Below, one piece after another: positions 12,260-44,300 of a DNA stretch of 64,000 nucleotides. This DNA is from Methylophilus sp. 14 (GTDB lineage Bacteria; Pseudomonadota; Gammaproteobacteria; Burkholderiales; Methylophilaceae): positions 124,001 through 188,000 of the forward strand of contig NZ_JADKYS010000001.1 in assembly GCF_015354345.1 (NCBI RefSeq), read 5' to 3'. The notes beneath the pieces were generated by a model that saw only the letters and a program-made list of their open reading frames with translations, was not told the origin of the DNA and did not search any database. Every line of letters begins with the position of its first letter. Position 1 is the first letter of the stretch. The translations under genes were made by a program, and so were the position numbers.

Positions 12260-13324
12260 ATGAGTCAATATTGGAGTAGCCTGGTACACAACCTGACCCC
12301 TTATGTGCCGGGCGAGCAGCCCAAACTGCAAAACCTGGTCAAGCTGAATACCAATGAGAATCCTTATGGGCCTAGCCCAGCGGTGATCGCTGCGTTGCAG
12401 GCTGAGGCGGCAGACAGTTTACGTTTATACCCAGACCCGGATTCCAGTCGCCTGAAGGCGGCGATTGCCGAATATCATGGCCTGCAAAGCAATCAGGTGT
12501 TTGTGGGTAACGGCTCGGATGAAGTGCTGGCGCATGTGTTCCAGGCTTTGCTCAAACATGATTTGCCGCTGCTTTACCCGGATATCACCTATAGCTTCTA
12601 CCCGGTTTATTGCGGCCTTTACGGCATTGCGTTTGAAACAGTGCCATTGAATGCGCAGTTTGAGATTGCGATTGACGATTACCTGCGTCCCAATGGCGGC
12701 ATTATTTTCCCTAACCCCAACGCACCCACCGGTATGCCGTTGGCATTGAGCGAAATAGAACGTTTGTTAAAAGCCAATACGCAATCAGTGGTGGTGATTG
12801 ATGAGGCTTATGTCGATTTCGGTACCGAATCAGCGGTGGCATTGGTCAATCAATATCCCAATTTGCTGGTGACACATACCTATTCAAAATCACGTTCGCT
12901 GGCTGGTTTGCGCGTGGGCTATGCCGTCGGTGATGCGGCCTTGATTGAGGCCTTGATTCGCGTGAAGGATAGTTTCAATTCTTATCCGATTGACCGCTTT
13001 GCCGAGGCGGGCGCGATTGCTGCCCTGCAAGACGAAGCCTATTTTCAGCAAACCCGTCAGCAAGTGATTGCATCGCGTGATCAGTTGGTGCTGGATTTGC
13101 AAAATCTGGGCTTCGAAGTGCTGCCCTCCGGCGCCAACTTTATTTTTGCACGCCATCCAAATTACGCGGGCGAGCAATTAGCCGCCAGTTTGCGTGCGCA
13201 GGCGGTGATTGTGCGTCACTTCAAAAAACCGGCGCGTATTGCCGACTTTTTGCGCATTACGATAGGCAATCCTGCTCAAAATCAGGCCTTGATGCAGGCA
13301 TTGCGTACCTTTCTGTCGGCTTGA
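12260..13324 (+). CDS. hisC: Histidinol-phosphate aminotransferase
   Basis: This PLP-dependent class I/II aminotransferase converts imidazole-acetol phosphate to histidinol phosphate. It has 354 residues with the N-terminal [13 protein letters not shown] motif of His[11 protein letters not shown], the NPNAPTG loop and the PLP lysine at residue 210 in [19 protein letters not shown]. It is the last his gene before the hps insertion. Confidence 0.94.
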
Positions 13325-13412
13325 TGTCGCTAAAATCAAAGTATTTGCCGTAATTTGCTCGCTAATGTGCTGCAAATGATTGCATTGTGGCGTAAAAAAA
13401 ATCGTCGCAATA

Positions 13413-13442
13413 TTGTCATTTTTTTGAAAATGCGGTTATGAT
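13413..13442 (+). promoter_or_regulatory. Promoter P1 of hps
   Basis: TTGTCA (13413-13418) and TATGAT (13437-13442) are separated by 18 bases. Each hexamer has one mismatch to the sigma-70 consensus. The implied leader is about 90 bases. Confidence 0.65.
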
Positions 13443-13465
13443 GCACGCTATTGTACATAATGTGC
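13443..13465 (+). promoter_or_regulatory. Imperfect palindrome at the P1 start point of hps
   Basis: Half-sites of the form GCACnnTAT face each other across 23 bases directly after the P1 -10 box, where transcription should begin. This is a candidate operator or the base of a leader hairpin; no known regulator motif is recognised. Confidence 0.35.
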
Positions 13466-13487
13466 AGTGAGGGTTGCGTTTGCATAA

Positions 13488-13516
13488 TTGCTGCGCATTG
13501 ATTCATTGGATTTAAA
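13488..13516 (+). promoter_or_regulatory. Possible second promoter P2 of hps
   Basis: TTGCTG (13488-13493), 17 bases, TTTAAA (13511-13516). It is weaker than P1, and the start would lie close to the strong CGGAGGAAG ribosome site at 13529-13537. Confidence 0.4.
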
Positions 13517-13541
13517 ATAGAGCAAACTCGGAGGAAGAAAA

Positions 13542-14420
13542 ATGGCACAAACCCAGATGGCATTGGACTCATTAGATTTCGACGCAACGATCGCCTTGGC
13601 AGCTAAAGTAGCGCCATACGTTGATATTTTGGAAATCGGTACACCTTGCATCAAGCATAACGGTATCGAATTGTTGAAAGCATTGCGTTCAAAATTCCCT
13701 AACAACAAAATTCTGGTTGACCTGAAAACCATGGATGCTGGCTTCTACGAAGCTGAGCCATTCTACAAAGCAGGTGCTGACATTTGTACCGTTTTGGGTA
13801 CTGCAGATATCGGTACGATCAAAGGCGTGATCGACGCTGCCAACAAGTATGGCAAAGAAGCGCAAATCGACCTGATCAACGTTAAAGACAAAAAAGCCCG
13901 TACGCTGGAAGTGGTTAAACTGGGTGCACACATTATTGGTGTACACACTGGTTTGGACCAACAAGCGGCTGGTCAAACTCCATTTGCTGACCTGGGTCTG
14001 GTATCCGGTCTGAAAACAGGCGCTAAAGTGTCTGTGGCTGGTGGCGTTAAAGCTGCAACCACTAAACAAGTAGTGGACGCTGGTGCTGATATCGTTGTAG
14101 CTGGTGCTGCAATCTACGGTGCTGCTGATCCTGCTGCTGCTGCAACTGAAATCACTAAAATTGCTCACGGTGCTGGCACTGCGACTAAAGGTGGTAACAA
14201 ATTGCTGCCATGGATCATTGCTGCTGTTGCTGCAGTATTGGTATTCTCCCTGTTGGGCAAAAAATCTGAAGAAGCTGCGCCTGCTGCTGAAGCACCAGCT
14301 GCGGAAGAAGTTGCTCCAGCCGATGCAGCACCTGCTGCTGAAGCGCCAGCGGCCGAAGAGGCTGCTCCAGCTGAAGCTGCACCTGCAGAAGCTGCGCCAG
14401 CAACTGAAGAAGCTAAATAA
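13542..14420 (+). CDS. hps: 3-hexulose-6-phosphate synthase with C-terminal membrane anchor
   Basis: HPS condenses formaldehyde with ribulose 5-phosphate to hexulose 6-phosphate, the carbon-fixing step of the RuMP cycle. Residues 1-213 are a full OMP-decarboxylase-type barrel: MALDSLDF at strand 1, Glu31, the DLKTMD motif (Asp60, Lys62, Asp65), HTGLDQQ and the phosphate-site VSVAGGVKA. Usual HPS proteins end there at about 210 residues. This one adds a hydrophobic helix at about 219-238 (LLPWIIAAVAAVLVFSLLG), then KK and a 51-residue tail of Ala, Pro and Glu repeats. The SD is near ideal and codon use looks biased as in highly expressed genes. It has its own promoters and terminator inside the his cluster. 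The phosphohexulose isomerase gene is not in the window. Confidence 0.92.
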   Translation: MAQTQMALDSLDFDATIALAAKVAPYVDILEIGTPCIKHNGIELLKALRSKFPNNKILVDLKTMDAGFYEAEPFYKAGADICTVLGTADIGTIKGVIDAANKYGKEAQIDLINVKDKKARTLEVVKLGAHIIGVHTGLDQQAAGQTPFADLGLVSGLKTGAKVSVAGGVKAATTKQVVDAGADIVVAGAAIYGAADPAAAATEITKIAHGAGTATKGGNKLLPWIIAAVAAVLVFSLLGKKSEEAAPAAEAPAAEEVAPADAAPAAEAPAAEEAAPAEAAPAEAAPATEEAK

Positions 14421-14454: not shown

Positions 14455-14491
14455 AAAAAAAGCAGCCCGTGCGGGCTGCTTTTTTGTTTTT
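14455..14491 (+). terminator. Intrinsic terminator after hps
   Basis: The perfect 9-bp stem AGCAGCCCG/CGGGCTGCT (14461-14469 with 14472-14480) is flanked by A and T runs. It is strong and makes hps a closed transcription unit. Confidence 0.88.
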
Positions 14492-14579: not shown

Positions 14580-15170
14580 ATGTCACGTCAAGCTGAAGTC
14601 ACGCGTAATACGCTAGAAACACAAATTACCGTCTCGATTAACCTCGATGGCACCGGTCAATCCGAGTTGCACAGTGGTTTGGGCTTTTTGGACCATATGC
14701 TGGATCAAGTTGCCCGTCATGGTATGGTTGATTTGAAAGTGCACGCTAAAGGCGATTTGCATATTGATGGCCACCACACGGTAGAAGATATCGGCATTAC
14801 GCTGGGCCAGGCCTTTGCCAAGGCGCTGGGTGATAAAAAAGGGTTGACCCGCTATGGCCACAGCTATGTGCCACTGGATGAGGCTTTGAGCCGTGTCGCA
14901 CTCGACTTGTCTGGCCGTCCAGGGCTGGCGTTTGATTGCACCTTTACGCGTGCCATGATCGGTGAGTTTGATGTCGATCTGTTCCATGAGTTTTTCCAGG
15001 GCTTTGTTAATCATGCCTTGGTGACGCTGCACATCGATAACCTCAAAGGTCATAATGCCCATCACCAGGCTGAGACCATATTCAAAGCCTTTGGTCGTGC
15101 GCTGCGTATGGCCGCGACCCCAGATCCACGTATGGCTGGATTAATGCCGTCAACCAAGGGTGCGTTATAA
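14580..15170 (+). CDS. hisB: Imidazoleglycerol-phosphate dehydratase
   Basis: HisB converts imidazole glycerol phosphate to imidazole acetol phosphate. The 196 residues hold only the dehydratase domain; the histidinol-phosphatase domain fused to it in E. coli is absent, so that step must be encoded elsewhere. The metal-binding motifs [26 protein letters not shown] and [15 protein letters not shown] are intact. It begins the second his transcription unit, downstream of the hps terminator. Confidence 0.95.

Positions 15171-26449: not shown

Positions 26450-27644
<1,195 letters not shown>

Positions 27645-43105: not shown

Positions 43106-44300
<1,195 letters not shown>

Follow-up and report, generated by a model that had tools for sequence, protein, structure and literature searches.

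A 3-hexulose-6-phosphate synthase with a predicted membrane anchor in the histidine cluster of Methylophilus and its relatives

The transfer of formaldehyde from the periplasm to its fixation in the cytoplasm without self-poisoning is an old question in methylotrophs. Some proteins are held at membranes by their C-terminal ends: C-tail-anchored proteins have a soluble domain first and a single membrane helix near the C-terminal end, by the classic definition within about the last 30 residues, and the MinD-like end consists of a short hydrophobic-basic helix after a flexible linker. In Methylophilaceae, the accessible text of PMC4109929 describes two copies of 3-hexulose-6-phosphate synthase (HPS), one in the histidine cluster and one beside the genes for hexuloisomerase (HPI) and transaldolase, about 90% identical within a genome. 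Here we analyzed a stretch of 64,000 nt from Methylophilus sp. 14 (GCF_015354345.1, contig NZ_JADKYS010000001.1, positions 124,001 to 188,000; hereafter the window), in which the hps gene of the histidine cluster encodes an enzyme core followed by a predicted transmembrane helix and a tail rich in Ala, Pro, and Glu. It is highly probable, judging from the sequences compared below, that the cell has a membrane-tethered HPS beside a soluble one.

The hps reading frame begins with ATG and is interrupted by neither a stop nor a frameshift (Table 1). Its product matched TIGR03128 (HxlA) over residues 5-207 with 248.7 bits (cut-off 200), and Pfam OMPdecase over residues 5-204 with 141 bits. In the AlphaFold2 model (m1632c3cff5f0), the barrel is followed by a linker of low confidence, a helix spanning residues 222-238 (block means of about 74), and a tail modeled as disordered; the best match of the barrel was the HPS structure 3ajx (48% identity, TM-score 0.90 on the target, rmsd 2.0). 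The residues D9, E31, D60, K62, D65, and H135, which correspond to the active-site residues of the suprafamily, were invariant in 40 of 40 aligned HPS sequences, and K62 and H135 occupy the positions of K64 and H136 in KGPDC, residues named there as mutants. By this alignment, the catalytic-type residues are retained, and the gene is assigned to 3-hexulose-6-phosphate synthase with predicted formaldehyde-fixing activity. The core is 100% identical to that of Methylophilus sp. QUAN (L033).

The best 19-residue Kyte-Doolittle window of the protein coincides with the predicted helix. The corresponding maxima were 1.52 for the core alone, 1.61 for the unextended second HPS of the same genome, and 1.83 for HisD, the highest value among the eight neighboring his proteins. 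Because HisD and the second HPS also exceed the usual threshold of 1.6, this threshold alone is no proof of a membrane segment; by its hydropathy, the helix stands out from the core, the second HPS, and the his neighbors. After the Lys-Lys pair, 46 of the 51 tail residues are Ala, Pro, or Glu. A sequence-only reading had proposed a full HPS barrel that continues in frame into a hydrophobic helix and a 51-residue Ala/Pro/Glu tail, with helix and tail at 14196-14417. The reading frame, profiles, and hydropathy confirm this description, and the coordinates are right.

Table 1. The hps gene of the window, the parts of its product, and the flanking signals
Feature	Position	Strand	Basis
Leader between hisC and hps, 217 nt, with ribosome site GGAGGA	13325-13541	+	Sequence
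hps gene of the histidine cluster, 292 residues and stop	13542-14420	+	Open reading frame; TIGR03128 above cut-off
Predicted HPS catalytic core, TIM barrel, residues 1-209	13542-14168	+	Profile matches; AlphaFold2 model
Gly/Ala/Thr linker with two Lys, residues 210-220	14169-14201	+	Sequence; predicted local distance difference test (pLDDT) below 50 at residues 213-218
Predicted transmembrane helix, residues 221-239	14202-14258	+	Kyte-Doolittle 2.47; helix at 222-238 in model
Lys-Lys after helix, residues 240-241	14259-14264	+	Sequence
Ala/Pro/Glu tail, 51 residues, 242-292, predicted disordered	14265-14417	+	Sequence; model
Intrinsic terminator-like hairpin between hps and hisB, 13 pairs followed by T run	14456-14485	+	Hairpin scan

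The second HPS gene of the genome (C9:173289-173918) encodes 210 residues, is 81% identical and unextended, and lies between the transaldolase and hexuloisomerase genes. This division holds across the family. We drew 150 genomes of Methylophilaceae, 143 of which gave a match, and read HPS copies from 141 (109 and 32 in two sets), leaving out G024 (fragment only) and G091 (marginal match only). The copies read were 174 from the 109 genomes, after rows fetched twice had been collapsed from 185 (L384 and L416 were counted once), and 34 more from the 32 genomes; contig-end fragments in G028 and G082 were left out, and a few rows have partial N-terminal ends (for example, L141, L396, L414, and L415). 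Among the copies read, for which the main listing ran down to about E 2e-106, every histidine-cluster copy carried a C-terminal extension (101/101; 99 in the first set and 2 later), whereas none of the copies at the tal-hps-hpi locus did (0/102; 70 in the first set and 32 later). The window's own genus contributed 21 histidine-cluster and 9 operon copies from 22 genomes. The query was the full protein, which favors extended copies; yet unextended copies were plentiful in the same list, and searches with the core alone gave the same split. In a named collection fetched with the core alone (80 of 401 loci taken), 64 of 64 histidine-cluster copies were extended (50 helix and 14 short) and 19 of 19 operon copies were plain; this collection overlaps the unnamed set, and the counts are not additive.

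The extensions are of two kinds. Fifty of the 101 have a transmembrane helix and a long acidic, Ala-rich tail, and 51 have a Gly linker followed by a short amphipathic helix such as LFGWLKKLFS. The helix form occurs in M. methylotrophus, M. rhizosphaerae, M. aquaticus, and Methylotenera versatilis 7, and the short form in Methylobacillus flagellatus, Pseudomethylobacillus aquaticus, and Methylovorus menthalis. For another five copies, all with the short anchor, the fetched stretch contained no his, tal, or hpi gene: in G011, G018, and G031 even wider stretches of 12-16 kb contained no his gene, the G008 copy lies at a contig edge, and the G041 copy is adjoined by other genes. The first three cases imply that the anchor does not need the histidine cluster. 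One genome (G021, L375:10340-12083, the same place as L067) carries two adjacent histidine-cluster hps genes, one with each anchor type; their cores differ at 5 of 621 nucleotides, and the core proteins are identical over the columns compared. The extension is therefore no peculiarity of one strain, as the comparison of Methylophilaceae homologs makes plain. The proposal of a membrane-tethered HPS finds support in sequence for the extended copy; it does not extend to "the enzyme" as a whole, since this is one of two copies. The idea that the Ala/Pro/Glu tail is a specific docking segment fared worse: the tail is absent in half of the anchored copies, and where present its length past the helix ranges from 31 to 110 residues, and its prolines may be missing.

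Both kinds of extension look like membrane anchors. The Kyte-Doolittle maximum was 1.67-2.66 in 50 of 50 helix-type copies, which had been selected by the 1.6 threshold. Net charge was positive on the N-terminal side of the helix in 48 of 50 distinct copies and negative on its C-terminal side in all 50, a pattern that favors the enzyme inside and the tail outside, so the predicted cytoplasmic side of the catalytic part, which the sequence-only reading had also put forward, is borne out at this level. The number of residues beyond the helix is 53 in the window protein. For the short anchor, the hydrophobic moment was 0.59-0.75, which fewer than 10% of shuffles attained for any one of the 17 variants, and the net charge was +1 or +2. 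Both values suit a helix that rests on the inner membrane face; the helix of the short anchor is modeled with low confidence at residues 217-223. The computation establishes the identity of the enzyme, the extension and its conservation, its tie to one of the two copies, and the two types of anchor, whereas membrane insertion, topology, and purpose are inferred.

Two observations in the family touch the extended copies and are given for themselves. An LVGAAKDATGxAK-like motif closes some of the long tails (L027, L047, L052, L057, L061, L110, L154, and L158); a loose form occurs in 10 of 101 rows, 2 of them only partly, and named and unnamed rows overlap in this count. A second, divergent HPS lineage, approximately 62-67% identical, occurs in the genera g6, g12, and g19; its operon-locus copies have no extension, and those found elsewhere bear the short anchor (L136, L137, L138, L139, and L413; tandem copies in L119-L122, L128, and L383).

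Within the genus Methylophilus, the ratio of nonsynonymous to synonymous polymorphism (pN/pS) over 20 distinct genes was 0.05 in the core and reached 0.24 in the helix and 0.27 in the tail, the value of the low-complexity tail depending on its alignment. In the short-anchor form it was 0.13 for the anchor, 0.11 for the enzyme, and 0.59 for the linker; the short anchor thus evolves about as slowly as the enzyme, unlike its linker. The same arrangement in 50 distinct histidine-cluster copies and the low pN/pS within the genus place the extension beyond chance, and the occurrence, at one and the same position, of two membrane-type ends so unlike each other argues that membrane binding is what selection maintains. 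In a tree of 98 cores, the label changes numbered 16 for operon, 17 for short-anchor, and 6 for helix copies, with unsettled bootstrap; the tree mixes the loci, yet operon copies never bear the extension. The median identity between histidine-cluster and operon cores of the same genome was 0.879, and that between histidine-cluster cores of different genomes 0.882 (53 genomes). Most simply, the two loci would trade cores with each other and keep their own ends. The genome's own operon copy was the closest to its histidine-cluster copy in only 7 of 53 genomes, so this exchange is not constant.

The mechanism that we favor is as follows. The HPS barrel in the cytoplasm would join formaldehyde to ribulose 5-phosphate; the C-terminal helix would cross the inner membrane and leave the end of the acidic Ala/Pro/Glu tail in the periplasm. 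In relatives with the short amphipathic helix, binding to the inner face of the membrane would achieve the same tethering. The likely role is to hold a share of the cell's HPS at the inner membrane, through which formaldehyde of periplasmic origin would come in, with the soluble HPS beside hexuloisomerase serving bulk assimilation. The arrangement thus suggests that formaldehyde fixation is partly organized at the membrane. Codon usage fits an appreciable level of the anchored enzyme: the effective number of codons (Nc) of the window hps was 34.4, third of 37 window genes after two EF-Tu genes (33.5 and 34.0), and that of its eight his neighbors was 42-54. Within the window genome, Nc was 35.3 for the soluble copy and 35.9 for the core of the anchored copy.

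Several observations weigh against this reading. The Lys-Lys pair directly after the window helix locally weakens the charge pattern. Over 53 genomes, the median Nc was 31.7 for the soluble copy versus 36.1 for the histidine-cluster copy, which had the lower value in only 6; from this stronger bias, the soluble copy is probably the main one, and we regard anchored HPS as probably abundant but second to the soluble enzyme. In the genera g14 and g16, with small genomes of 0.8-1.4 Mb, only the plain operon copy was present in 32 of 32 genomes read, and in G125, a 91% complete assembly of the window's genus, likewise only a plain copy was found; the anchored form, on this evidence, is dispensable or missing from some assemblies. 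Over 49 distinct genes of the family, pN/pS was 0.51 for the tail and 0.46 for the helix, which indicates that the long helix form is held loosely and that tail and helix drift across the family. Soluble HPS has reportedly been purified from such bacteria. Finally, a rough reaction-diffusion estimate gave a Damkoehler number of 0.0025-0.1 with assumed constants (kcat/Km of 1e5-1e6 per M per s, 50-200 uM enzyme, D of 5e-10 m2/s, and a distance of 0.5 um). Formaldehyde would therefore cross the cell many times before fixation, and tethering alone would gain little. This estimate speaks against proximity to methanol dehydrogenase as the reason for the tether, which, given so weak a gain, probably pays through partners, through handover, or otherwise.

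Other explanations of the anchor have to be considered together with these points. The tether may serve to assemble HPS with membrane partners, in a metabolon or through a periplasmic tail that touches methanol dehydrogenase or the cell wall, with nearness to formaldehyde incidental. This has a real chance of being right, though short of an even one: the diffusion estimate makes mere proximity weak, and a long exposed tail occurs in 50 copies. A search of the window's own genome with the Ala/Pro/Glu tail gave one further match at E up to 10, and that match belongs to a probable lipoprotein, which would place such a tail outside the cytoplasm. However, an exported tail is absent from the 51 short-anchor copies, the tails that exist differ greatly in sequence and length, and the partners are candidates only. 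Somewhat less probable, but still to be taken seriously, is that the membrane copy acts as a formaldehyde guard, detoxifying by cyclic oxidation through HPS rather than assimilating. A separate soluble copy sitting with hexuloisomerase and transaldolase would suit this division, as would the leader and terminator-like hairpin of the histidine-cluster copy and the formate dehydrogenase-like neighbors of the anchored copy in G041; the cores of the two copies are, however, much alike and would yield the same intermediate. The names of these neighbors (anchored hps at L374:1474-2154, adjoined by them and not by his genes) are presumptive. We also considered a two-site entry into the ribulose monophosphate (RuMP) pathway, in which soluble HPS would carry the bulk and docked HPS would couple fixation to periplasmic methanol oxidation; formaldehyde would be handed over at the membrane, by way of the acidic periplasmic tail where present, instead of mixing freely, and the two anchor types would have arisen independently to serve this single need. 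We hold this fuller scheme to be speculative and rather unlikely.

Neutral read-through, or clipping of the extension after translation, would agree with the drift in tail length and sequence, but it is very improbable in view of the strict split between the two loci and of pN/pS values well below 1 for the helix within the genus and for the short anchor. Least credible of all is that the enzyme belongs to a protein compartment, with its C-terminal segment as the cargo or assembly peptide. A short amphipathic helix after a Gly linker does resemble encapsulation peptides in general, but a 19-residue hydrophobic helix does not fit. Neither the microcompartment shell protein (PF00936) nor encapsulin (PF04454) had a match in any of the 12 genomes searched, and these profiles found their controls in 2 and 3, respectively, of 14 well-known genomes; we rejected a microcompartment or encapsulin cargo because neither shell protein was matched in these 12 genomes. 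A membrane-tethered HPS beside a soluble one, with an inner-membrane role, remains the reading we prefer.

The short, probable lipoprotein mentioned above (LTACGEKPAEEAPAAEAP..., L115:1330-1701, in G000:C8 near 577301) has nearly the same Ala/Pro/Glu tail as HPS. A search of 23 short-anchor genomes with a DNA pattern for GW(x)KK(x)F found 18 matches, spread over 17 of these genomes; 17 matches lie at HPS genes by position and one in G040:C14. The latter was rejected as a shared anchor, being a 20-residue frame and not a protein end. Thus, no short anchor of this pattern was found on other enzymes in the 23 genomes; the pattern fixes the KK pair, so that LFGWLKGLFS-like forms are not covered and different anchors would be missed.

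In the window, hps sits between hisC (ending at 13324) and hisB (starting at 14580), in the order hisD, hisC, hps, hisB, hisH, hisA, hisF, hisI, and hisE, the his names being presumptive. The leader of hps may carry its own promoter; a promoter-like match at 13413-13442 was at chance level. Four terminator-like sites were found in the region versus a mean of 2.0 in shuffles, and so the call of the hairpin behind hps relies on its length and position. The leader and this strong hairpin suggest that hps may be transcribed separately from the his genes. The two EF-Tu genes of the window (26453-27643 and 43109-44299) are identical in their first 70 residues and are the most codon-biased of the 37 genes measured.

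These results have practical consequences. An anchored and a closely similar soluble copy, with cores much alike and different ends, form a clean genetic handle, and two natural anchor versions are available to swap; they are also ready-made anchors for engineered methanol users. Annotations that equate the two hps genes overlook a difference.

Outside the family, HPS appears without such ends. A class-wide draw of 369 genomes gave 6 above the HPS cut-off, the window genome included. Together with two other families, this draw yielded 72 rows, or 67 distinct outgroup genes after 5 fetched twice, taken as the best-scoring matches with loci. Forty-nine of them end within 8 residues past the barrel and 18 are HPS-HPI fusions; neither anchor type was found among the 67. 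A 1974 paper on the HPS of Methylococcus capsulatus reportedly describes a particulate enzyme; no anchor was found in the methanotroph-type HPS genes read.

Compared with known systems, the window protein shares the whole barrel, the fold, and the aligned residues with ordinary HPS (3ajx), which ends near residue 207-211, and differs from it in carrying an anchor. As in HPS-HPI fusions (NF041755; 9lj9), a barrel and a C-terminal addition are joined in one frame; the addition in the fusions is the next enzyme of the pathway, whereas here it is a membrane segment. With C-tail-anchored proteins it has in common the soluble domain first and one helix near the C-terminal end, but the 31-110 residues past the helix exceed the usual short tail, and with 53 such residues the window protein falls outside the classic tail-anchored definition. 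The MinD end resembles the short anchor type only; it belongs to a different protein, and no match to MinD over the family cut-off was found in the 5 genomes searched. In the open-licence literature covered, we came across no account of a Methylophilaceae HPS that is bound to the membrane or carries a C-terminal extension, and the accessible text of PMC4109929, whose two HPS loci are the same as those described here, contains no mention of an extension or anchor. As far as these sources go, HPS and its two-copy layout were already known, while the anchors, their tie to one copy, and the existence of two types appear to be new.
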